From: Streptomyces flavofungini
GTDB lineage: Bacteria; Actinomycetota; Actinomycetes; Streptomycetales; Streptomycetaceae
Reading direction: 5' to 3'
DNA: 64,000 bases
Assembly: GCF_030388665.1 (NCBI RefSeq)
Contig: NZ_CP128846.1
Location: 2,954,001 to 3,018,000 of the forward strand
The stretch's first letter is position 1, and each line of letters starts with the position of its first letter. The translations under genes were made by a program, and so were the position numbers. This document shows, piece by piece, positions 2,804-13,230 of this stretch. The notes beneath the pieces were generated by a model. That model saw only the letters and a program-made list of their open reading frames with translations, had not been told where the DNA came from and made no database searches.

Positions 2804-3814
2804 TCAAACCTGGTATCGGTCAGCCGCGAACAGGTGGAGGTTCTCGGCGACCCACGCAGAGGTCAGCTTCAGCCCCTCCCGCAGGGAGACTTCGGGCACC
2901 CACCCCGAAAGCTCTCGCGCCCGCGAGTTGTCGGAGAGCAACCTCTCCACCTCACTCCCAGCAGGCCGCATCCGGGCGGGATCGGCGACGACGACGGCGT
3001 CCCGCCCACTCGCGGCGATGAGCTCCTGGGCCAGGTCCCCGATGGATATCTCCCGGCCCACGCCGAGGTTGACCACCTGGCCCAGGGTCCGCTCGGCCTC
3101 GGCCATCGCGAGGAAGCCGCGCGCCGTGTCCGTGACATAGGTGAAGTCACGGGTCGGCGAGAGCGAGCCCAGCTTGATCTCCCGTGCCCCGGAGTGCAGT
3201 TGGGCCAGGATCGTGGGGATCACCGCGCGCGCCGACTGGCGCGGCCCGTACGTGTTGAAGGGCCGCACGACCGTGACGGGCAGCTCGAAGGCGTGCCAGT
3301 GGGACAGCGCGGTCATGTCGGCGCCGATCTTCGACGCGGAGTACGGCGACTGCGGCTGGAGGGGGTGGCTCTCGCTGATCGGAACGGTCAGCGCGGTCCC
3401 GTACACCTCGCTGGTGGAGGTGTGGACGAGCCGGCGCACGGACGTCCTGCGGCAGGCCTCGGCGATGTTCTCCGTACCGACGACGTTGGTCTGCACGTAC
3501 GCGCCGGGTGAGTCGTAGGAGTACGGGATCCCGATGAGCGCGGCGAGGTGGAAGACGGTGTCGCAGCCGTCGACGGCGTCCATGACGCGCCCGGCGTCGC
3601 GCACGTCACCGGCGATCAACTCGACGCGCGGGTCCCCGGCGAGGTGCGCGAGGTGCCCCTTGTCGCCGTACGGCTTGTAGTGCGCGAAGGCGCGGACCCT
3701 AGCGCCGCGTTCGAGGAGCAGATCGACGAGCGTGGAGCCGATGAAGCCCTCGGCACCGGTGACGAGGACGGTGCGGTCGTGCCAGGAGAAGGGGGCAAGG
3801 GCGAGGGCGTTCAT
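2804..3814 (-). CDS. NAD-dependent nucleotide-sugar 4,6-dehydratase (LegB-like SDR)
   Basis: A 336-residue extended short-chain dehydrogenase. It has the Rossmann motif TGAEGFIG (19-26), the HTSTSEVYG segment (131-139) and the catalytic Tyr158-x3-Lys162 in SPYSASKIGAD. The run NTYGPRQSARAVIPTI and the T-S-E triad are those of LegB-type NAD-dependent 4,6-dehydratases, which act on UDP-N-acetylhexosamines to give 4-keto-6-deoxy sugars. Substrate assignment is inference from those motifs. The ATG overlaps the stop of the MurG-like gene by ATGA (3811-3814), so the two are translationally coupled. No aminotransferase or sialic-acid synthase follows, so this is not a full legionaminate pathway. Confidence 0.8.
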   Translation of the reverse strand: MNALALAPFSWHDRTVLVTGAEGFIGSTLVDLLLERGARVRAFAHYKPYGDKGHLAHLAGDPRVELIAGDVRDAGRVMDAVDGCDTVFHLAALIGIPYSYDSPGAYVQTNVVGTENIAEACRRTSVRRLVHTSTSEVYGTALTVPISESHPLQPQSPYSASKIGADMTALSHWHAFELPVTVVRPFNTYGPRQSARAVIPTILAQLHSGAREIKLGSLSPTRDFTYVTDTARGFLAMAEAERTLGQVVNLGVGREISIGDLAQELIAASGRDAVVVADPARMRPAGSEVERLLSDNSRARELSGWVPEVSLREGLKLTSAWVAENLHLFAADRYQV

Positions 3815-5007
3815 GCGGCGTACTCCAGGTGATCGGTGTGGTGGGTGAGGCGCAGAACCCGCTCAGCGAGCAGGTCGGCGGCGCGGGCGTGCGGCCCGGG
3901 GTCCGCGGCGCCGCTCATCGCGGCGAGCCGCGCGGGCTCGGCGAGCAGCGGTTCGAGGAGCGCGGCGAGCCGGTCGGCGGTGGTCTCGGCGTCGGGCAGG
4001 AGCAGCCCGGCGCCCGCGTCGGAGAGGACTCGCGCGTTGTGGGTCTGGTGGTCGCCGGGGGCGTGCGGGTAGGGCACGAGGACGGCGGGCACGCCGGTCG
4101 CGGCGAGTTCGGCGACGGTGGCGGAGCCCGCGCGGCAGACGACGAGGTCGGCGGCGGCGTAGGCGAGGTCCATCCGGTCCAGGTAGGGCACGGCGTGGGC
4201 GACGGCGTCGCCGCCGTCCTGCGCGAGCCGCCGCCGTGTCTCGTCGAGGGCCGCGGGACCGGTCTTGACCAGCAGGGATACGTCGCCGCGCCACCGCCAG
4301 CGCGCGGCGAGCCCGAGGGCCGCCTCAGTGAGCCGGGCGGCGCCGAGGCTGCCGCCGTTGAAGAGCAGGAGGCGCGCCCCTTCCGGCACGCCGAGGGTGC
4401 GCCGGGCCTCGGCGCGCAGCGCGTCCCGGTCGAGGGCGGCGAGCGCGGCGGCGATGGGCATGCCGGTGGTGGTGGCGCGGTCGCCGCCGGGCAGATGGGC
4501 GCGGCTGCGGTCGAAGGCGACGGCGATGTGCGGGGTGAGGCGGGCGGCGAAGCGGTTGGCACGGCCGGGCACCGCGTTGGACTCGTGGATGAGGCTGGGC
4601 AGGCCTGCCATGCGGGCGCCGACGATGACGGGGGCGCTCGGGTAGCCGCCCATGCCGACGGCGACCTGCGCGCCCTGCTCGCGCAGGATGGCCCGGCACT
4701 GGGCGCCGGACTTCACCAGGGCGGCGGGCAGCAGATAGCGGCGGGCGCCGAGGGACGGGTCGAAGGGGATCATGTCGACGGTGTGCAGCCGGTACCCGGC
4801 CTCGGGGATGAGCCGGGTCTCCAGGCCGCGCTCGGTGCCCACGAAGGAGATCACCGCGTCCGGCACGGCCCGGCGCAGGGCGTCGGCGAGGGCGAGGCCC
4901 GGATAGATGTGGCCGCCGGTGCCGCCCGCGCCGATCACGACGGACAGCGGCCTGTACGTGTGGGTCGCCGCGGCGCGGGCCGTGGCGGAGGTGACGGGAG
5001 TTCTCAT
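3811..5007 (-). CDS. MurG-like UDP-GlcNAc glycosyltransferase (GT28 paralogue)
   Basis: A 398-residue GT-B enzyme. The N-terminal acceptor-side glycine motif GAGGTGGH is at 26-33, HESNAVPGRANR follows in mid N-domain, and the donor-binding motif CRAGSATVAELAATGVPA plus PGDHQTHNA lies in the C-domain. These are MurG signatures: the family moves GlcNAc from UDP-GlcNAc onto lipid I at the inner membrane face. No cell-division or wall genes surround it, so it is probably a second copy rather than the housekeeping murG. Coupling to a nucleotide-sugar dehydratase suggests a dedicated lipid-linked glycan with a modified sugar, which is inference. No clear ribosome site precedes the ATG. It is divergent from a two-component system. 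Confidence 0.82.
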   Translation of the reverse strand: MRTPVTSATARAAATHTYRPLSVVIGAGGTGGHIYPGLALADALRRAVPDAVISFVGTERGLETRLIPEAGYRLHTVDMIPFDPSLGARRYLLPAALVKSGAQCRAILREQGAQVAVGMGGYPSAPVIVGARMAGLPSLIHESNAVPGRANRFAARLTPHIAVAFDRSRAHLPGGDRATTTGMPIAAALAALDRDALRAEARRTLGVPEGARLLLFNGGSLGAARLTEAALGLAARWRWRGDVSLLVKTGPAALDETRRRLAQDGGDAVAHAVPYLDRMDLAYAAADLVVCRAGSATVAELAATGVPAVLVPYPHAPGDHQTHNARVLSDAGAGLLLPDAETTADRLAALLEPLLAEPARLAAMSGAADPGPHARAADLLAERVLRLTHHTDHLEYAA

Positions 5008-5032
5008 GACGCCGGAGCTTCGCGACCCGTCC

Positions 5033-5049
5033 TAAGAGGGTTTTAAGAG
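5033..5049. promoter_or_regulatory. Direct repeat TAAGAG-N5-TAAGAG, candidate response-regulator site
   Basis: Two TAAGAG hexamers start at 5033 and 5044, exactly 11 bp apart, in the divergent region between the MurG-like operon and the OmpR-type two-component genes. One-turn direct repeats are the usual site of OmpR-family regulators, so this could let the adjacent regulator control both operons. Confidence 0.5.
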
Positions 5050-5139
5050 CTGGGTTTGGCACCTTTGGTGCATGAGTTCGTTCCTGTGCCGCACGAGGTG
5101 CGGTTGCCCCGGGACCCGGCCCGCCACGGGCGCCGCCGC

Positions 5140-5871
5140 ATGACGCCGCCGCCCGCGCACGCCGCGCACGCCTCTAAGGTCCTCGTCGTCGACGACGACC
5201 CCGAGGTGCGCGCCGCCGTCGAGGACGCCCTGAGCGTCGAGGGCCATCTGGTGCGCGGTGCCGCCGACGGCCACCGCGCGCTGACCGCGGTGGCCAGGTG
5301 GGAGCCGGACCTCCTGGTCCTGGACGTGAAGATGCCCGTGCTCGACGGCCTTGCCGTGTGCCGCAGGCTGCGCGCGGCGGGCGACCGCACCCCGGTGCTC
5401 GTCCTGACGGCCCTGGACTCGGTGAGCGACCGCGTCGACGGCCTGGACGCCGGCGCCGACGACTACCTGGTCAAGCCGTTCGCCCTGGACGAGCTGGTGG
5501 CGCGGGTCCGGGCGCTCCTGCGCCGCGCCGCCCCGGACCCGACGGGCCCCGGCGGCCCGGAGGCCGACGGCGACGCCCTGTCGTACGGCGATCTGACGCT
5601 CGACACCCGGACCCGCACCGGCGAGCGCGCCGGGCGCCGCATCGAGTTCAGCCGCACCGAGTCCACGCTCCTGGAACTGCTGCTCCGGAACTCCGGGCAG
5701 GTCCTGCCGCGCGAGCTGATCCACGAGGCCGTGTGGGGCCGGGACTTCGGGCCCGACTCCAACTCCCTCGCGGTGTACGTCGGCTATCTGCGCCGCAAAC
5801 TGGAAGCCGGGGGCGAGGCGCGGCTCGTGCACACCGTGCACGGCGTGGGCTACCGGCTCGGTTCGCCGTGA
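5140..5871 (+). CDS. OmpR/PhoB-family response regulator
   Basis: A 243-residue regulator from the ATG at 5140. The receiver domain has the acidic pocket VVDDD, phospho-acceptor Asp62 (LVLDVKMP) and Lys in VKPFALDELV. A winged helix follows (about 145-240), ending in the family motif VHTVHGVGYRLG. The start is uncertain: TTG 5056 and GTG 5086 are in frame upstream, and none has a good ribosome site. The stop overlaps the GTG start of the kinase (5868-5871), so the pair is co-translated. It resembles MprA/CseB-type regulators of envelope stress. Confidence 0.87.
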   Translation: MTPPPAHAAHASKVLVVDDDPEVRAAVEDALSVEGHLVRGAADGHRALTAVARWEPDLLVLDVKMPVLDGLAVCRRLRAAGDRTPVLVLTALDSVSDRVDGLDAGADDYLVKPFALDELVARVRALLRRAAPDPTGPGGPEADGDALSYGDLTLDTRTRTGERAGRRIEFSRTESTLLELLLRNSGQVLPRELIHEAVWGRDFGPDSNSLAVYVGYLRRKLEAGGEARLVHTVHGVGYRLGSP

Positions 5872-7280
5872 GCGCCCCCGGAGGCGGCCGTAGCCGCGCC
5901 CTGGGCGCCCGCTGGCGGCGCCGCCGTCCGCTGCGCACCCGCCTCGCGGTGGCGGCGTCCGCCGCGGTGGCGCTGGTCGCGATCTGCGTCTGCACGGCGT
6001 CGTTCTTCGTGCTCCGCTACAAGCTCTACCAACAGCTGGACCAGAACCTGGCCCAGTCCGCGACCCTGGCCGCACAGCAGCACCGCTCCGAGGAGCAGGG
6101 TTACGGCGTGCTCGCGGGCGAGTGCCGCTTCCTGGGCGCTCCGGCCTGCGCGCAGGTGGTCCCGGCCGCCTCGGCCGACGACCCGAAGAAGCCGTACCTG
6201 CTGCCCGTGGACCGCTCGACACGGCAGGTCGCGGCGGGTGAACTCGCCTCGTACTACTCGAACTTCACCCTCCCCAACGGCAAACCGGGGCGCATGCTCA
6301 CCACCGCCCACGGCAAGGGTGCGGCCGTCCAGGTGGCGCTGCGCGCCGACATCGCCGAGCGCGGGGTGCGGCAGACCGCCGCGATCCTTTCGGTGGTGGG
6401 CGGCGCGGGCGTGCTCCTGTCCGCGCTCGGCGGCTATTGGGTGTCCCGCACCGGCCTCGCGCCCGTCGCGCGGCTGACCGCGACGGCGGAGCGCATCGCG
6501 TCGACCCGGGACGCCCGGCACCGCATCGAGCTGCCGCCCGGGCCGCCCGACGGGCGCGGTGAGGACGAGGTGACGCGGCTCGCCAAGGCCTTCAACACCA
6601 TGCTCGGCGAGCTGGAGGACTCGGTCGCGGCGCGCCGACGGCTCGTCGCCGACGCCTCGCACGAACTGCGTACGCCGCTGACGTCGTTGCGTACGAACGC
6701 GGAACTCCTCGCCCGCGCCGATCGCCTGACGGCGGAGCAGCGGGACCGGGCGTCGACCGCGCTCGGCCGACAGCTGCGCGAGGTCACCGGCATGGTCAAC
6801 GACCTGATCGAGCTGGCCCGCGACGAGGAGCCGCAGCCGCTCCTGGAGGAGGTGCGCCTCGCCCCGCTGGTCGAGCACGTCGTGAACGCGGCGCGTGAGC
6901 ACTGGCCCGCGATCGTCTTCACCTGCGACGTCACTCCCGGCGCGGCCGCCCTCACGCTGCCCGGAGTGCCGTCCCGGCTCTCCCGCCTGGTCACCAACCT
7001 CCTGGACAACGCGGCGAAGTTCAGCCCGGCCGGGGCGGCCGTCGAGGTCTCCCTGACCACGATCGGCCTGACCGTCCGCGACCACGGCCCCGGCATCGCC
7101 CCGGAGGACCTGCCGCACGTCTTCGACCGCTTCTACCGCGCGGAACGGGCCCGCGCCCTGCCCGGCTCCGGCCTCGGCCTGGCCATGGCCCGCCAGATCG
7201 CACGGGCCCACGGCGCGGAACTGACGGCGGAACACGCGCCCGGCGGGGGCGCGCTGTTCCGTCTTACGTGGCCCGCGTAG
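5868..7280 (+). CDS. Membrane sensor histidine kinase
   Basis: A 470-residue kinase. TM1 (about 27-48) and TM2 (about 171-192) flank an extracytoplasmic sensor domain of some 120 residues that carries two cysteines eight apart (Cys86, Cys94), a possible disulfide. HAMP follows, then the H-box [13 protein letters not shown] with His265, and an ATPase domain with N, G1 (DHGPGI) and G2 (GSGLGLAMA) boxes. GTG start in a GTGA overlap with the regulator gene. The layout matches MprB/CseC kinases. The signal is unknown; the divergent MurG-like pair suggests an envelope cue, which is inference. Confidence 0.88.
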
Positions 7281-7292
7281 GGGTGCCGACGG

Positions 7293-7502
7293 TCAGACGG
7301 CGCCGAAGTCGCCGGCCTTCACGCCGCCCACGAAGTCGGCGAACGCGCGGGTGGCGACGGCCAGGACGGGGCCGGTCGGGCGCTTGGAGTCGCGGATGGG
7401 GACTGTGCCGTGTGCGGCGACGAGGTTGGCGGCGATCTCTATGCAGGCGCCGCCGTTGTTGCTGTAGGAGGACTTGAACCAGAGGGGGGATTCAGTCGTC
7501 AC
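7293..7502 (-). CDS. DUF397 domain protein
   Basis: A 69-residue protein with the DUF397 signature: [17 protein letters not shown] at the start, then [14 protein letters not shown] and a phenylalanine-containing helix ending [11 protein letters not shown]397 genes almost always follow an XRE regulator of the Scr1/DUF5753 type in streptomycetes, as here. Its ATG overlaps the regulator stop (7499-7502). It is thought to act as the small partner of that regulator, sometimes modelled as a toxin-antitoxin-like pair; the function is not established. Confidence 0.88.
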
Positions 7503-8329
7503 GAGATGCCCTTTCGTAACTGGTCGAGCATGGCCACGGATGCCGCCTGAGAAGGGGCTTCGGCCTGTAGCTGATGGTAGGACCTCAACAGGGGTAGAAC
7601 GAATGTGCTGTCCCGTTCCAGATGGCCTCGTTGGGCAGATTCCGCGTACGACACCAGCGAGCGGTCCGGCAGCGTCAGGAGGTACACCGGCAAGTCGAAC
7701 GGCCGCCGGGCCCCCATATCGAACGGCACCACCTGCAAGACGGTGTTCGGCATCTCGGCGAACTCAAGAAGCCGGGTGAACTGGGCCCGCATGACGGCGG
7801 GTTCACCGATGGGCCGACGGATGCAGCTCTCGTCCAGCATGGCGAAGATCAGCGGTGGCGGGGTCCGGACGAGCGCGGTCTGCCGCTCCGCCACGAGGTT
7901 GATCCGCTCCTCCGCCTGCTCGTCCGTGATCGCCCCGCGCTTCACCGCGCCCTGCGCGAGCACCGTCGCGTACTCCGGTGTCTGAAGCAGCCCTGGCATG
8001 ACGCCCACTTCATAGAGGCGGATCTCCGCGGCCTCCGCCTCGTGGTCCACGAATTGCGGAAACCCTTCCAGCAGGCCCGCGTTCCGCACCACGCGCCAGG
8101 CGCGTTCGAACGTGTCTCCGGCGCCGAAGGCCACGTCCGCTCGGCGGGCGAGGCGCAAGGTTGGCATCTTTCGTCCAGTTTCGATGGACGAGAGGTGCGT
8201 ACTCGAATACCCCATGCGTTCGGCAAGCTCGTCCTGGGTCCAGCCGCGCTCCTCGCGCCAACTGCGCACACGCGCCCCGAAGGCGGCTTTCGGCGAACTG
8301 TCCGGGTCCAACTCCTTGCGGTTGACCAA
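7499..8329 (-). CDS. XRE-family regulator with DUF5753 (Scr1-type)
   Basis: A 276-residue protein. The N-terminal helix-turn-helix (about 15-70) reads GWTQDELAERMGYSSTHLSS and ends IETGRK; the rest is the DUF5753 domain typical of Scr1-family regulators. I chose the TTG at 8329 because GGGGAGGAAAGG lies directly before it; reading from 8368 would translate the ribosome site. It is followed by DUF397 in an ATGA overlap and faces two small genes across about 90 bp. Homologues influence sporulation and antibiotic production in streptomycetes; this one's targets are unknown. Confidence 0.88.
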   Translation of the reverse strand: MVNRKELDPDSSPKAAFGARVRSWREERGWTQDELAERMGYSSTHLSSIETGRKMPTLRLARRADVAFGAGDTFERAWRVVRNAGLLEGFPQFVDHEAEAAEIRLYEVGVMPGLLQTPEYATVLAQGAVKRGAITDEQAEERINLVAERQTALVRTPPPLIFAMLDESCIRRPIGEPAVMRAQFTRLLEFAEMPNTVLQVVPFDMGARRPFDLPVYLLTLPDRSLVSYAESAQRGHLERDSTFVLPLLRSYHQLQAEAPSQAASVAMLDQLRKGIS

Positions 8330-8422
8330 CCTTTCCTCCCCAACGTCCACGTTGAATGGTTCCCCCACCCTAGGTCACGATGATGTCCCTTGGTAGTGGA
8401 ACCGCTACGGAGAGGTACGGTC

Positions 8423-8644
8423 ATGCGCGACGCCCCACCCCCCGGCACCCTGGTACGAGACGTGTCCCGCGATCTGATCGGCGAGTTCCGGGGGGAGTGG
8501 TGCGGGCTCTGGTCCCTGCGGCCGGTAACGGGCGGGCGGGAGTGGACCGTTGCGCCCGAGGACGTCGAACCGGCCACGCCCGCGCAGGAGTTGCGGGCCG
8601 GGACGGCGCGGGCGAACGCGCGCAGCCGGGGTGAGCTGCTGTGA
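8423..8644 (+). CDS. Small protein, first of a paralogous pair
   Basis: 73 residues starting MRDAPPPGTLVRDVSRD, with GGAGAGG as ribosome site before the ATG. The body has the pattern PG-x2-V-x-D-x3-D-x2-G ... LRPVTGG-x-EW, ending in an Ala/Arg-rich helix. I do not recognise a named family; the pattern resembles short beta-rich proteins common beside XRE/DUF397 genes in streptomycetes. The next gene has the same pattern, so the two look like diverged duplicates. It overlaps that gene by GTGA at 8641-8644 and is divergent from the XRE regulator. Confidence 0.7.
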   Translation: MRDAPPPGTLVRDVSRDLIGEFRGEWCGLWSLRPVTGGREWTVAPEDVEPATPAQELRAGTARANARSRGELL

Positions 8645-8925
8645 CGGCCCGCCACCCCAACGCCGCCCCCAAGAGCCGGGCGCGCCGTACGGCGGCATTC
8701 GACGCACCGGCGGGAATCCGCCCCGGCGCGGTGGTCTTCGACCGGACGTACGACATGCCCGGCACCGTGCGGGAGGTCGACGGCGCGTTCGTCGTCCTGG
8801 ACCGCCCCACAGGCATGACCTGGCGGGCCCACTACCGCCACCTGCGCCGGGCCACGGCCTGGGAACACCGCCAGCTACCGGCCCTGGCCCGGCTGCACGC
8901 GCAACGCCTGCGCGGCGTCGGCTGA
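8641..8925 (+). CDS. Small protein, second of a paralogous pair
   Basis: 94 residues from a GTG overlapping the previous stop. A basic N-terminus (residues 1-24) precedes PGAVVFDRTYDMPGTV and LDRPTGMTWRAHYRHLRRAT, which aligns with the body of the preceding protein: PG, V-x-D, D-x2-G, RP-x0-1-TG and W are in register. No catalytic motif is evident. It may be a small beta-barrel protein that works with its neighbour; no function is known to me. Confidence 0.7.
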   Translation: MTARHPNAAPKSRARRTAAFDAPAGIRPGAVVFDRTYDMPGTVREVDGAFVVLDRPTGMTWRAHYRHLRRATAWEHRQLPALARLHAQRLRGVG

Positions 8926-8927
8926 CG

Positions 8928-8951
8928 GCCGGGGCCGGGGCCGGGGCCGGG
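8928..8951. repeat. GGCCGG hexanucleotide repeat
   Basis: Four head-to-tail GGCCGG units fill the gap between convergent genes. It is a simple-sequence tract and may fold into a GC-rich terminator-like structure. Confidence 0.6.
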
Positions 8952-8957
8952 GGAAGG

Positions 8958-10658
8958 CTAGAACCCGGGCGGCTCCACGTACACGCCCCACTCGTCGCGC
9001 AGCGCCCCACAGATCTCCCCGAGGGTGGCCTCGGCCCGGACGGCGTCCAGCATCGGGGCGATCATGTTGGACCCGTCGCGCGCGGCGGCGAGCATCGCGT
9101 CGAGCGAGGCCCGCACCCGGGCGTCGTCGCGCCGGTCCTTGCGGTCGGCGAGGACGCGCACCTGCTCGCGCTCCACCTCATGGCTGACGCGCAGGATCTC
9201 CAGGTCACCGGTAACGGAGCCGTGGTGGGCGTTGACGCCGACGACCCGCTTGTCGCCCTTCTCCAGGGACCGCTGGTACTGGAAGGCGGACTCGGCGATC
9301 TCGCCGGTGAACCAGCCGTCCTCGATGCCGCGCAGGATGCCGGAGGTGACGGGCCCGATGGGGTGCTGTCCGTCGGGGTGCGCCCGCCGCCCCCGCTCCT
9401 TGATCTGCTCGAAGATCTTCTCGGCGTCGGCCTCGATGCGGTCGGTGAGCTGCTCGACGTACCAGGAACCGCCGAGCGGGTCGGCGACGTTGGCGACGCC
9501 GGTCTCCTCCATGAGGACCTGCTGGGTGCGCAGCGCGATCTCGGCGGCTTGCTCGCTGGGCAGGGCGAGGGTCTCGTCGAGGGCGTTGGTGTGCAGGGAG
9601 TTGGTGCCGCCGAGGACGGCGGCGAGGGCCTCCACGGCGGTGCGGACGACGTTGTTGTACGGCTGCTGGGCGGTCAGCGAGACACCGGCGGTCTGGGTGT
9701 GGAAGCGCAGCCACTGCGCCTTGTCGGACTCCGCGCCGTACACGTCCTTCATCCAGCGGGCCCAGATCCGGCGGGCGGCTCGGAACTTGGCGATCTCCTC
9801 GAAGAAGTCGACGTGGGCGTCGAAGAAGAAGGAGAGGCCGGGGGCGAAGACGTCGACGTCGAGGCCGCGGCTGAGGCCCAGCTCCACGTAGCCGAAGCCG
9901 TCCGCGAGGGTGTACGCCAGCTCCTGCGCGGCCGTCGCCCCGGCCTCGCGGATGTGGTACCCGGAGACGGAGAGCGGCTTGTAGGCGGGGATGTCGCGGG
10001 CGCAGTGCTCCATCAGGTCGCCGATGAGGCGCAGGTGGGGCTCGGGCTCGAAGAGCCACTCCTTCTGCGCGATGTACTCCTTGAAGATGTCGGTCTGGAG
10101 CGTGCCGTTGAGCACGCCCGGGTCGACGCCCTGCCGCTCGGCGGCGACGAGGTACATGCAGAAGACGGGGACGGCGGGGCCGCTGATCGTCATCGACGTC
10201 GTGACGTCGCCGAGCGGGATGTCCTTGAACAGGACCTCCATGTCGGCGGCGGAGTCGATGGCGACGCCGCAGTGGCCGACCTCGCCGAGGGCGCGCGGGT
10301 CGTCGGAGTCACGGCCCATGAGCGTCGGCATGTCGAAGGCGACGCTCAGGCCGCCACCGCCGGCGGCGAGGATCATCTTGTACCGCTCGTTCGTCTGCTC
10401 GGCGTTGCCGAAGCCCGCGAACTGGCGGATCGTCCACGTACGCCCCCGGTATCCCGTGGGGTACAGGCCGCGCGTGAACGGATACTCGCCGGGCCATCCG
10501 ATGCGCTCGAAGCCCTCGTAGGTGTCCCCGGGCCGGGGCCCGTAGGCAGGCTCGACCGGGTCACCGGAGAGCGTCGTGAAATCGGCGTCGCGCTTCTTCG
10601 CGGCGTCGTACCGGGCCTGCCAGCGGCGGCGGCCCTCTTCGATGGCGTCAGCGTCCAT
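8958..10658 (-). CDS. icmA: Isobutyryl-CoA mutase large subunit (IcmA)
   Basis: A 566-residue catalytic chain of the acyl-CoA mutase family without the C-terminal B12-binding domain, so it needs a separate small IcmB subunit not found here. The substrate-specifying residues are those of isobutyryl-CoA mutase: Phe80 (TIRQFAGF) instead of the Tyr of methylmalonyl-CoA mutase, and Gln198 (YIAQKE) instead of Arg. These positions match published IcmA numbering, which also confirms the ATG at 10658. The enzyme interconverts isobutyryl-CoA and n-butyryl-CoA, linking valine breakdown to fatty-acid and polyketide precursors. The start lies just inside a 24-bp palindrome that also covers a leaderless -10. 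meaB, a likely G-protein partner of B12 mutases, is at 29.8 kb. Confidence 0.93.
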
Positions 10659-10666
10659 GCCGCCCA

Positions 10667-10690
10667 ATTTACTTGGACGTCCTAGTAAAT
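10667..10690. promoter_or_regulatory. 24-bp operator palindrome over the icmA promoter
   Basis: ATTTACT and AGTAAAT arms enclose a centre containing GGACGTCC; only the base pair flanking the centre is asymmetric. It overlaps the likely -10 of icmA (TAAATT on the minus strand, 10666-10671), seven bases before the ATG. This is the size and shape of a TetR-family operator, so repression relieved by an acyl-CoA is plausible. The half-site TTACTTGGA also occurs at 578-586 on the minus strand. Confidence 0.65.
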
Positions 10691-10743
10691 GTCGATGGCC
10701 AACCGCCACGGACACGCCGTGGCGGGGGTGCGGCGCGGGTCCC

Positions 10744-11076
10744 TCAGGCCTTGGCGAGCGGGGTCGCGGGCTCCGTGAGCAGCGGCTCGACCTCGCGGAC
10801 GACCTTGCGCTCGACGAAGAAGGCGGCCGTGGGAATGGTGCCGGACACAAGGACCCAGAGCAGCTTGCCGAACGGCCACTTCGCCTTGGAGCCGAGGTCG
10901 AAGGCGAAGACCAGGTAGATGATGAAGAGGACGCCGTGGATCTGGGAGACCGCGAGCGTCAGGCCCTCGCCCTTGTCGAAGCCGTACTTGACCACCATGC
11001 AGACGCACAGGATCAACAACATGACGGCGGTGACGTAGGCCATTACCCGATAGCGGGTCAGCACGCTGCGTTTCAT
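10744..11076 (-). CDS. DUF3817 integral membrane protein
   Basis: A 110-residue membrane protein with about three hydrophobic helices. The DUF3817 hallmarks are visible: a histidine in SQIHGVLFIIYLVFAFDL and PTAAFFVERK near the C-terminus. Function unknown. The ATG at 11076 is preceded at seven bases by TACGCT, a good leaderless -10, inside a GGCTAC-GAGC-GTAGCC palindrome. A longer reading from 11136 lacks support. A paralogue lies at 23114-23458. Confidence 0.85.
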   Translation of the reverse strand: MKRSVLTRYRVMAYVTAVMLLILCVCMVVKYGFDKGEGLTLAVSQIHGVLFIIYLVFAFDLGSKAKWPFGKLLWVLVSGTIPTAAFFVERKVVREVEPLLTEPATPLAKA

Positions 11077-11092
11077 GGCTACGAGCGTAGCC
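11077..11092 (-). promoter_or_regulatory. Leaderless promoter with palindrome before the DUF3817 gene
   Basis: On the minus strand TACGCT (11089-11084) stands seven bases before the ATG, and the whole stretch forms the palindrome GGCTAC-GAGC-GTAGCC. The first transcribed base may therefore be the A of ATG. Confidence 0.45.
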
Positions 11093-11160
11093 CGCTCCCC
11101 CACGCGATCTTCAGCTGCCCCTTTTCTCCCGCCCACCCGCCCCGAATCGCGCTGGCGCGC

Positions 11161-11276
11161 TCGTCCTCAATCGCCGGACGGGCTCAATATTTCCCCCGGC
11201 ACGCTCAGCGATGTCCCCCTCGGGAACGATCAAGCCCGCAGCGGCCGAAATCCAGCCCGTCCGGCGTTTGAGGACG
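11161..11276. repeat. Inverted pair of a dispersed Streptomyces intergenic repeat
   Basis: A unit containing CGTCCTCAA and CGCCGGACGGGCT (11161-11184) recurs in inverse orientation at 11253-11276 with one change. I recall this unit from many streptomycete intergenic regions. The arms could pair as a long stem downstream of the MarR gene. A shorter related hairpin is at 55485-55512. Confidence 0.7.
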
Positions 11277-11324
11277 AGGCCCGAAGGGCTGATGAAGCGG
11301 GGAAAGGGGCGCAGCCCCATCTAC

Positions 11325-11831
11325 CTAGCCGTCGAAGTCCTGCGCAGCAACCCGCAGGGGCCGCAACATCGCGAAAATGTCCCCGCACTCCTCCGCGTCG
11401 TAGACGCCGAGCCCGAAATCCATCGCCATCAGCTCCCGCGTCGCCTCCTCGACGACCTCGCGCCCCTTCTCCGTGATGGAGGCGAGCGTGCCGCGCCCGT
11501 CGTTCGGGTTCGGCCGCTTGTCCACGAGCCCGGACCGGACGAGCCGGTCCACGGTGTTCGTGACGGACGTCGGGTGCACCATGAGCCGCTCGCCGATCTT
11601 GGACATCGGCAGCTCACCCGCCTTGGAGAAGGACAACAGCACCAGTGCCTCGTAGCGCGCGAAGGTCAGTCCGTACGGCTTGACGACCGCGTCGACCTCG
11701 GCGAGCAGGATCTGGTGCGCGCGCATGATCGAGGTGATGGCGCCCATCGCGGGCACGGAACCCCAGCGCTGCTTCCAGAGTTCGTCGGCACGGGCGATGG
11801 GATCGAAGGGGAGACTGAGCGGCTTCGGCAC
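11325..11831 (-). CDS. MarR-family transcriptional regulator
   Basis: A 168-residue protein with the MarR winged helix in the middle: MSKIGERLMVHPTSVTNTVD is the recognition region and KRPNPNDGRG the wing. GTG start at 11831 with AAGG about nine bases upstream. It is ten bases downstream of the MFS gene on the same strand, so the two form an operon. MarR proteins next to exporters usually sense the exported compound; that link is inference. Confidence 0.87.
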   Translation of the reverse strand: MPKPLSLPFDPIARADELWKQRWGSVPAMGAITSIMRAHQILLAEVDAVVKPYGLTFARYEALVLLSFSKAGELPMSKIGERLMVHPTSVTNTVDRLVRSGLVDKRPNPNDGRGTLASITEKGREVVEEATRELMAMDFGLGVYDAEECGDIFAMLRPLRVAAQDFDG

Positions 11832-11841
11832 AGCGTCGACC

Positions 11842-13230
11842 TTAGCCGCCGGTCACATACCGGTCAGCCCCAGTCTCAGGATTCGGCAGCGCGCTCGCCC
11901 CCGGCCGTCCTGTCGACCGGACCTCGCGCACCAGGAGCAGACAGCACACCGTGCCGAGCGCACCGGCGCCCGCGACCACCGTGCTGACGGCGAAGAACTC
12001 GGCGGCGAGCCCGGCGAGCGCCATGCCGACACCCTGGAGGGTCATCAGGCCCGCCGTGTGCACGGTCATGGCGCGGCCGCGCAGCTCCGGCGGCACGGCG
12101 TCCACGAACCAGCGGTCGAGCCCGAGGGTGTACGCCGATCCCGCTCCGGCGAGCACGAGCGCGGGCAGCGCCCAGGCCAGGCCGGGGGCGAAGACGTACG
12201 CGAGCAGGGGGAGCAGGGTCGTCGCGGCCAGCGGGAGCACGATGCGGGAGCGGGTGGCGGGGGTGAGCGCGGAGCCCGCGTACACCTCGGCCGCGATGGT
12301 GCCGACGGGCATCGCGCACATCAGCAGGCCGACCCCGGCGGTGCCGACGCCGATCTGCTCCGCGTACGGGGCGGCGAGGGCCTCCGGGGCGACGACGAAC
12401 ATCGGGGGCGCCCAGAGCAGGAGCAGCAGCGCGCGCATCCGCCGGTGCCCGAGGACCTCACGGGCACCCGCGAGCGAGTACCGCAGGAGCGCGGTCTCCC
12501 CCTCCCCCGCTCCCCCGCTCCCCCGCTCGCCGCCCCGCGCGGGCCGCCGCTTCGTACCGGCCCGAAGCAGCAGCGCCGACGCGAGGAACGTCACCAGCGT
12601 GATGACGAGCGCCCCGCGCGGGGAGACGACGGTGAGCAGCACGCCCCCGAGCCCGAAGCCGACGAGGACGGCGCTCTGCGACACCATCCGCAGCAGCGAA
12701 CGCCCGAGCACGAACAGGTCGCCGTCGCCGAGGACGTCGGTGAGCGTGGCCATCCGGGTGCCGTTGAACACCGGCGAGACGGCGGCGATGAGGCAGCGCA
12801 GCGCCAGCAGTCCGGCGACCGGTGTCACGGGCAGCGCCATCAGCGCGGCGCATCCGGCGCACACGAGGTCGCAGCCGACGAGGACCCGGCGCGGCGGATA
12901 CCGGTCGGCGACCCCGGCGAACAGCGTCCCGCCGACGAGGTACGGCAGCATCCCCAGCGCGAACGCCAGCGCGCTGAGCAACGGCGACCCGGTGAGGTCG
13001 TACACGAGCACCGTCAGCGCGATCTCGCTGACGACGACCCCGAGCAGCGACAGCGCGTGCGCGACGAACACGGCCCGGAACTCGGCGACGGCGAAGACCC
13101 GCCCGTACCCGTCCCTCGGCCCCCTCTCGTCCGAGCCCGCGAGCCGCTCCGCCCCCGGGGTCCCGTCACCCCCGTCGCCCCCGGCCGTCGTGTCCGCACC
13201 CGCCGCCCCGGCCCCGTGTCCGTCTGTCAT
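11842..13230 (-). CDS. MFS transporter
   Basis: A 462-residue major facilitator with about twelve hydrophobic segments starting near residue 52, after a Gly/Asp-rich N-terminal tail. The DRYPPRRVLVGCD loop after TM2 corresponds to the family's motif A. The composition fits an MFS drug or metabolite exporter rather than a sugar importer; substrate unknown. It is co-directional with the MarR gene downstream and divergent from an ArsR-type regulator 91 bp away, a common exporter-regulator layout. Confidence 0.85.
   Translation of the reverse strand: MTDGHGAGAAGADTTAGGDGGDGTPGAERLAGSDERGPRDGYGRVFAVAEFRAVFVAHALSLLGVVVSEIALTVLVYDLTGSPLLSALAFALGMLPYLVGGTLFAGVADRYPPRRVLVGCDLVCAGCAALMALPVTPVAGLLALRCLIAAVSPVFNGTRMATLTDVLGDGDLFVLGRSLLRMVSQSAVLVGFGLGGVLLTVVSPRGALVITLVTFLASALLLRAGTKRRPARGGERGSGGAGEGETALLRYSLAGAREVLGHRRMRALLLLLWAPPMFVVAPEALAAPYAEQIGVGTAGVGLLMCAMPVGTIAAEVYAGSALTPATRSRIVLPLAATTLLPLLAYVFAPGLAWALPALVLAGAGSAYTLGLDRWFVDAVPPELRGRAMTVHTAGLMTLQGVGMALAGLAAEFFAVSTVVAGAGALGTVCCLLLVREVRSTGRPGASALPNPETGADRYVTGG

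Follow-up and report, generated by a model that had tools for sequence, protein, structure and literature searches.

A second MurG-type glycosyltransferase paired with a LegB-like dehydratase in Streptomyces flavofungini: a candidate self-regulated unit for a lipid II variant

Could a Streptomyces genome hold a regulated means of changing the sugar of lipid II? A four-gene locus in a 64-kb stretch of the Streptomyces flavofungini genome (the window) raises this question. A GlcNAc-MurNAc backbone is considered close to universal, and the lipid II remodelling best known for resistance, that of the van systems, acts at the peptide end. If the MurG subfamily described here is indeed tied to a sugar dehydratase, lipid II would be open to exchange of its sugar too, under sensor control, and such a pair could take over the essential MurG step. 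The consequences would extend to antibiotics and enzymes whose recognition of lipid II or the wall depends on GlcNAc.

Two of the four genes lie on the minus strand. The first encodes a MurG-type glycosyltransferase of 398 aa, here called MurG2 (3811..5007; TIGR01133, PF03033+PF04101), and the second a LegB-like SDR dehydratase of 336 aa (2804..3814; TIGR04180, PF16363, PF01370). The reading frames in the window share an ATGA at 3811-3814, bearing out the overlap reported in the preliminary description. That description also placed an OmpR-type pair divergent from these genes, and this arrangement was confirmed (5140-7280 on the plus strand, 2804-5007 on the minus strand). The response regulator (5140..5871; PF00072 + PF00486) has an open frame from TTG 5056, with ATG 5140 as its likely start. 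The sensor histidine kinase of 470 aa (5868..7280; HAMP PF00672, HisKA PF00512, HATPase_c PF02518) starts at GTG 5868, where a GTGA overlaps the regulator stop. With a receiver and a winged helix in one protein and HisKA and HATPase domains in the other, the two are of the OmpR two-component type.

Both enzymes fall slightly short of their nearest curated families. MurG2 scores 244.2 bits against TIGR01133, narrowly below the equivalog cut-off of 250.25. The best family match of the dehydratase is LegB, the NAD-dependent 4,6-dehydratase of legionaminic acid synthesis, but at 430.3 bits it stays below the cut-off of 475, which we describe as a narrow miss, and no legionaminic acid genes are conserved beside it. 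Thr-x-Glu together with Tyr-x-x-x-Lys is the motif of NDP-sugar 4,6-dehydratases. The corresponding residues are kept: Thr134, Ser135, Glu136, Tyr158 and Lys162 are invariant in 14/14 sequences, and the Thr-Ser, Tyr and Lys columns are invariant in 33+4+15 aligned sequences.

MurG2 and the dehydratase occur in an identical set of 30 of 150 Streptomyces genomes and, across the host's order, in an identical set of 61 of 293 genomes, adjacent in all 61. Seven of the order's genomes match MurG2 partially, six over ~250-265 residues and one (G233) at a contig end. Because related genomes share ancestry, these counts do not represent that many independent events. The pairing also has a limit: it is strict only for dehydratases of ~69% identity or above, while those of 50-61% identity found elsewhere had no MurG2 nearby (15 loci, L144-L150 and L155-L162), and genome G482 carries a 60% identical dehydratase with no adjoining MurG2. 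At the 33 loci read, window included, all four genes are present, so that they are co-conserved, as the idea in the preliminary description required; the regulator has a homologue at every one. Our neighbour gene calls used a simple score by codon position, which fuses or overlooks genes and sometimes takes the wrong strand, and four-gene presence was therefore based on tblastn. Around the unit, the neighbours change from locus to locus, and conservation across the settings is limited to the four genes. No aminotransferase or reductase, and no polymerase, flippase or further glycosyltransferase, is conserved with it across the settings compared. Searches of the open-licence PMC literature on a second MurG, on MurG together with a dehydratase or 6-deoxy sugars and on quinovosamine in peptidoglycan showed no description of this pair among the entries listed. 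We also considered plasmid spread of MurG2, but the PLSDB matches (63 records) were all below 60% identity, the best among those listed reaching 46%, and so no plasmid carrier was found.

The preliminary description had allowed that MurG2 might be the only, housekeeping MurG of the genome. It is not: a second full MurG, 42% identical to MurG2, is encoded at G000:C1:6950104-6951171. MurG2 resembles canonical MurG (TIGR01133) in its fold domains, its catalytic residues and an identity of 38-47% to housekeeping actinomycete MurGs (41-43% to the six Streptomyces MurGs compared), and differs from it in more than a score just below the cut-off. In the tree, the MurG2-type proteins, 37 in number, fall into a single clade (support 100/97). 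In the alignment, Arg164, a reported UDP-GlcNAc donor-site contact of MurG (PMC10966019), is present in 0/37 MurG2-type proteins and 38/38 housekeeping MurGs, the window's MurG2 having Ala at this position; Asn199 is present in 0/37 and 37/38, respectively. Residue numbers follow the literature, the alignment count being one lower. The catalytic residues His19, Tyr106, Ser192, Glu269 and Gln289 are kept in at least 36/37 MurG2-type and at least 36/38 housekeeping proteins. Asn292 is kept as well, and most known UDP-GlcNAc contacts, including Glu269 and Gln289, are retained. By tree and alignment, these comparisons establish the MurG2-type enzymes as a distinct MurG subfamily, which in the samples searched was not seen without a LegB-like dehydratase.

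The strongest evidence came from outside Streptomyces, from the dcw cluster of Frankiaceae-type genomes. The preliminary description had the pair lying outside any wall cluster, but relatives of the pair do sit in one. In four Frankiaceae-type draft genomes from two genera (68-91% complete), the murG of the dcw cluster is of the MurG2 type and is followed by a CBS-nucleotidyltransferase gene and then by the dehydratase gene, while nine related genomes have an ordinary murG and no dehydratase. A dcw-located MurG2 relative also just misses the TIGR01133 cut-off (245.6 bits), and a dehydratase relative scores 441.8 bits against TIGR04180 (cut-off 475). By homology and gene order, the MurG2/dehydratase pair in this second lineage takes the place of the ordinary murG. 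In the four drafts no second full MurG was found, nor any further MurG scoring more than 46 bits against PF04101. In genomes G474 and G529 the MurG2 type is the sole MurG found, suggesting that it may replace MurG in vivo. Since relatives of the pair lie in the dcw cluster, the likely lipid carrier is lipid I/lipid II.

Replacement of MurG has a precedent in MglA, an alternative enzyme of lipid II synthesis known from Kitasatospora and Streptomyces (Zhang et al. 2021, PMC8092295). Like MurG2, MglA is an extra, non-dcw MurG-type enzyme found in part of the Streptomycetaceae, with both GT28 domains (PMC8092295). It is a known alternative MurG, probably different from MurG2; the comparison covered identities to housekeeping enzymes, which are 31.2% for MglA to S. 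coelicolor MurG (PMC8092295) and 41-43% for MurG2 to six Streptomyces MurGs. The main text of that paper contains none of the words dehydratase, epimerase, operon or two-component. As MglA can stand in for MurG in Kitasatospora and S. coelicolor, giving normal peptidoglycan (PMC8092295), MurG2 might likewise be a reserve enzyme for lipid II synthesis that works with ordinary UDP-GlcNAc and is induced by envelope stress, with the dehydratase supplying a different glycan produced in those conditions. The six conserved residues listed above (His19 to Asn292) and the apparent lack of any other MurG in the four drafts fit such an enzyme. However, it would leave unexplained both the co-occurrence of MurG2 and dehydratase (61/293 genomes, adjacent, two lineages) and the fact that Arg164 and Asn199 have been lost throughout the group, and we consider it unlikely.

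The HEQN acceptor loop of MurG is altered to HESN in Streptomyces MurG2 and to HESG in the four Frankiaceae-type drafts. GT28 enzymes with other acceptors exist, and extra MurG-like proteins are spread over many groups (PMC8092295), so that MurG2 could instead use another lipid-linked acceptor and, with the dehydratase, start a minor surface glycan or secreted product. Such a pathway is quite improbable given that no polymerase, flippase or other glycosyltransferase is conserved alongside the unit and that the second lineage has the pair within dcw, with the MurG2 type seemingly its only MurG.

Our main reading, to which we assign a probability of about 0.5, is that the four genes form a transferable, self-regulated unit making a lipid II variant, in which MurG2 transfers a sugar derived from the dehydratase reaction. 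The dehydratase would act on a nucleotide-linked GlcNAc and turn it into a HexNAc of 6-deoxy-4-keto (or further changed) form, MurG2 would add this to lipid I instead of or besides GlcNAc, and the host flippase and polymerases would then use the altered lipid II. A sugar lacking a free 4-OH would allow glycan strands only to be started or capped; were the keto group reduced by a host enzyme, the sugar could join the backbone. A MurG version combined with a sugar enzyme and its own sensor and switch suggests that wall precursors with an unusual sugar are possible. More tentatively, with the odds somewhat against it, a different sugar, a 6-deoxy HexNAc originating from the dehydratase, may occupy the GlcNAc position of natural peptidoglycan: in one Frankiaceae lineage it would be the standard precursor, and in about one fifth of Streptomyces an alternative under sensor control.

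In favour of the lipid II variant we count, all from comparative sequence analysis, the co-occurrence and adjacency of the pair, the joint presence of all four genes amid changing neighbours, the dcw placement of the pair in four drafts with no other MurG found while nine relatives have ordinary MurG and lack the dehydratase, the MurG2 clade, the loss of Arg164 and Asn199 despite retained catalytic residues, the dehydratase motif residues and the spaced repeat described below. Against it we count the lack of a reductase or aminotransferase in the unit and of the 4-OH that chain growth needs in a 4-keto sugar, which is awkward where the MurG2 type is the only MurG. The two narrowly missed family cut-offs, the draft state of the Frankiaceae-type genomes, the G482 dehydratase without MurG2, the UDP-GlcNAc contacts kept in MurG2, with which it may transfer plain GlcNAc, and the MglA precedent of normal lipid II from an extra enzyme also count against it. 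The earlier proposal of a regulated pathway placing a deoxy amino-sugar on a lipid carrier thus holds in part: regulated transfer of a dehydratase-derived sugar fits the data, while an amino-sugar beyond N-acetylglucosamine chemistry is unsupported, as the unit has neither an aminotransferase nor a reductase conserved beside it.

Regulation is suggested by an 11-bp-phased direct repeat, CTAAGA-GGGTT-TTAAGA, between the divergent starts (5032..5048, no strand). The repeat noted in the preliminary description is the only copy in the window. Base composition predicts ~0.09 copies in 9.36 Mb, whereas two places in the S. flavofungini genome match a slightly stricter search pattern. An exact [CTG]TAAGA-N5-[CT]TAAGA occurs at the same place in 32/33 loci, the exception (L141) having a 2-mismatch version only. 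In 30/33 loci, 22-24 bp separate it from the closest ATG on the MurG2 side; in the other three the distance is 11, probably because a spurious CAT lies closer. The corresponding distance towards the regulator is 23-24 bp in only 20/33 loci. On these counts the repeat is more than chance, and it is the probable, predicted operator of the regulator for both sides; its conservation and spacing fit the control of both sides suggested earlier, which stays a prediction. In Streptomyces, the kinase would sense an extracytoplasmic signal, and the regulator would bind the CTAAGA repeat, switching on the pair and itself. A wider regulon was considered and rejected: YTAAGANNNNTYTAAGA matches the unit in 9/12 carriers and in none of 8 non-carriers, with 3 further sites elsewhere, but across these 20 genomes the backward control pattern matched 5 times, and the additional sites therefore look like chance.

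The kinase has an extracytoplasmic PAS/Cache-like domain with two cysteines invariant in 28/28 aligned sensor parts; its structure model has a pLDDT of 85.2. VanO-type and other van clusters likewise contain a murG-like gene, within a lipid II-modifying set under two-component control (PMC8698665); the change proposed here lies in the sugar of lipid II, in contrast to the peptide in van clusters. Compatible with the lipid II variant, a van-like unit could sense a wall-active compound or muralytic enzyme and exchange the lipid II sugar as protection. We regard this candidate purpose as rather doubtful. Foldseek gave no sensor match with an E of 0.001 or less, the scores of chemoreceptor Cache domains are nearly as high, and the four Frankiaceae-type genomes showed neither a regulator nor a kinase homologue in the stretches read.

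It should also be noted that a dedicated CBS-nucleotidyltransferase, as found with the paired genes in the Frankiaceae-type dcw cluster, was sought in Streptomyces and dismissed. Matches of 28-36% occurred in 23/23 genomes tested, carriers and non-carriers alike. Nearly all were to the nucleotidyltransferase half, apart from a match in G023 that covers 27-338 and contains a stop; among the genomes tested, the only full-length gene was that of G474.

In the window (G000:C1:2954001-3018000, from the 9.36-Mb S. flavofungini genome), a 398-aa MurG-type glycosyltransferase, here called MurG2 (3811-5007, minus strand), is paired with a 336-aa LegB-like SDR dehydratase (2804-3814, minus strand). Divergent from this pair, on the plus strand, are the genes of an OmpR-type regulator (likely 5140-5871) and of a sensor kinase of 470 aa (5868-7280). 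The preliminary description had the first two genes overlapping by ATGA, and these four bases are indeed common to both frames; the regulator and kinase genes overlap likewise. It also proposed searching the genome for another murG, which we found: PF04101 gave three places, namely a 366-aa MurG at ~6.95 Mb that is 42% identical to MurG2, the window protein itself, and a weak third (41.6 bits). The window protein is thus a second MurG. Similarly, all 30 Streptomyces carriers gave at least two matches to MurG2, i.e. MurG2 and another MurG. Some Streptomyces genomes (G019, G056, G134 and others) gave 3-5 matches at E up to 0.001, so MurG2 is not the only additional MurG-like group. In a published survey, 38% of Streptomyces and Kitasatospora strains had MurG-like proteins in addition to MurG, belonging to many sequence groups (Zhang et al. 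2021, PMC8092295), and one of these, MglA, was shown to act as a lipid II synthase (PMC8092295). A second 2021 paper noted MurG-like genes next to van genes (PMC8698665).

MurG2 and the dehydratase occur together. MurG2 orthologues (identity at least 73%; next best match 43%) are present in 30 of 150 Streptomyces genomes, and dehydratase orthologues (E up to 1e-100) in the identical 30. Across 293 genomes of the order, a set overlapping with the Streptomyces sample, MurG2 and the dehydratase (identity at least 71%) were each detected in the same 61 genomes, always on a single contig and strand, with MurG2 upstream and the matched stretches 0-564 bases apart; since related genomes share ancestry, these counts are not independent events. 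A more distant dehydratase (52-57% identity) is found in ~70 further genomes of that sample, and no MurG2 was detected near it in the seven loci read. In all three such loci examined (L144, L146 and L148; 54-55% identity), it lies beside a nucleotidyltransferase and a second SDR. In L146 the group (5037-12153) also includes a GH114 protein and a DUF3492 glycosyltransferase, a set that we take to resemble Pel polysaccharide clusters.

Co-conservation, on which the preliminary description had made its idea depend, extends to the whole group: all four genes are present in 33 of 33 loci read (30, being the window plus 20 plus 9, and three divergent loci, two of them from another family). Among the 30, 18 share the window's thioredoxin-TPR/TetR flank, seven occupy another site and five have neither. 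Because the neighbours vary while the four genes stay together, they form a unit that was moved or kept in one piece. In five of the seven second-site loci (L059 of G038, L052 of G054, L053 of G074, L057 of G083 and L055 of G134), a mere 17-19 kb separates the unit from the ordinary murG of that genome, which is on the opposite strand.

In a tree of 76 MurGs, 37 MurG2-type proteins (30, the three divergent ones and four from Frankiaceae-type genomes) are split from the rest by a branch with support 100/97. None of the 38 housekeeping MurGs falls within this set; their own grouping is weaker (71/92), and E. coli forms a long branch. MurG2-type proteins keep His19, Tyr106, Glu126, Ser192, Glu269, Gln289 and Asn292 (literature numbering). 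However, Arg164, reported as a UDP-GlcNAc contact (PMC10966019), is Arg in 38 of 38 housekeeping MurGs and in none of the 37 MurG2-type proteins. Asn199 is Asn in 37 of 38 and 0 of 37, respectively, and at position 265 housekeeping MurGs have Met, Asn or Ser and the MurG2 type has Ala, Ser or Gly. Asn128 belongs to the HEQN loop, which PMC8256705 assigns to acceptor binding; it is kept in 33 MurG2s, but the four Frankiaceae-type proteins have Gly instead. Given this assignment, the acceptor side may differ as well.

Among 394 genomes of the class, the dehydratase was found outside the order at 69-73% identity in four small Frankiaceae-type drafts from two genera of one family: G474, G529, G538 and G547 (91%, 86%, 86% and 68% complete). 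Here the dehydratase loci are dcw clusters. The order in L152 is murF-mraY-murD-ftsW-murG-[CBS + NTP_transferase]-dehydratase-murC-ftsQ-ftsZ, with murG, transferase and dehydratase named by search and the other genes by reading of the proteins. The CBS-domain nucleotidyltransferase occupies 6612-7664 in L152 and 4449-5543 in L151; murC follows the dehydratase in both, and the contigs of L153 and L154 stop within the dehydratase. The murG products share 54-58% identity with Streptomyces MurG2 (scores of 347-378 bits over both search directions), compared to 41-45% (195-209 bits) for MurGs of the nine other genomes of the same order, in which no dehydratase was detected at E up to 1e-90. When 197 class genomes were searched with the G474 MurG, the scores of the matches listed left a gap from 226 to 347 bits; above it are eight proteins, query included, from G474, G529, G538, G547, G000, G167, G067 and G056, all genomes with the dehydratase. 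In G442 and G520, two related genomes that lack the dehydratase, murG directly precedes murC, and identity to L152 is 80-81% for mraY and 70-71% for murC but only 40% for murG. With similar neighbours and a divergent murG, the dcw murG of this lineage was thus swapped together with the gain of the nucleotidyltransferase and dehydratase.

This placement in the dcw cluster of a second lineage ties the unit to lipid II synthesis, and an exchanged sugar is the likeliest, though unproved, reason for the MurG2/dehydratase pairing. The dehydratase, whose top family score is LegB (below cut-off), retains Thr-Ser-Glu and Tyr-x-x-x-Lys, a signature typical of 4,6-dehydratases and not of 4-epimerases. 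A 4,6-dehydratase without a reductase would yield a 4-keto-6-deoxy sugar lacking the 4-OH. Lipid II with such a sugar could serve to begin or cap a glycan strand, but could not be extended by transglycosylation. PF04101 gave one place each in G474 and G529; in addition to the dcw gene, it gave one weak place in G538 (45 bits) and two in G547 (33 and 26 bits). Where another MurG seems absent, MurG2 might also use UDP-GlcNAc, the keto group might be reduced by a host enzyme, or the dehydratase product might keep its 4-OH, as does the 5,6-ene of the tunicamycin pathway. The CBS-nucleotidyltransferase has a domain layout like that of the glucosamine-1-phosphate guanylyltransferase with which Campylobacter makes legionaminic acid, a lead towards a possible GDP-sugar in the Frankiaceae-type lineage; no full-length counterpart was found in the Streptomyces carriers tested.

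The unit is real and conserved, and probably self-regulated. Between the divergent starts lies the repeat CTAAGAGGGTTTTAAGA (5032-5048), the only copy in the 64-kb window. The exact form [CTG]TAAGA-N5-[CT]TAAGA occurs in all but one of the 33 loci. On the MurG2 side, the nearest ATG is 22-24 bp away in 30 of 33; on the regulator side, the first ATG is at 23-24 bp in 20 of 33. Across 20 genomes, a slightly stricter pattern matched the unit in nine of 12 carriers and gave no match in eight non-carriers; its three matches outside the unit were not above the five of a backward control. These distributions suggest a local, self-regulated switch with the repeat as putative operator. We found no prior description of the dehydratase pairing, repeat, arginine loss or dcw exchange in the open-licence literature, consulted mostly as listings.

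The extracytoplasmic part of the kinase, a predicted PAS/Cache-like domain, has two cysteines that are invariant in all 28 sequences aligned. Its nearest solved relatives include WalK receptor domains, with scores that a common fold alone might also give. A 23-codon frame (window 5072-5143) opens at the ATG that, by our reading, starts the regulator itself in L034 and other relatives. In the window this ATG is out of the regulator frame, and the short frame ends GCATGA, overlapping the ATG at 5140, so that translation of the regulator may here proceed by re-initiation. In L054 (G071:C74), an insert of ~1.2 kb (~6290-7490) separates the repeat from the start of the regulator gene; we read it as an insertion sequence, and it seems to have duplicated the CTAAGAGG end.
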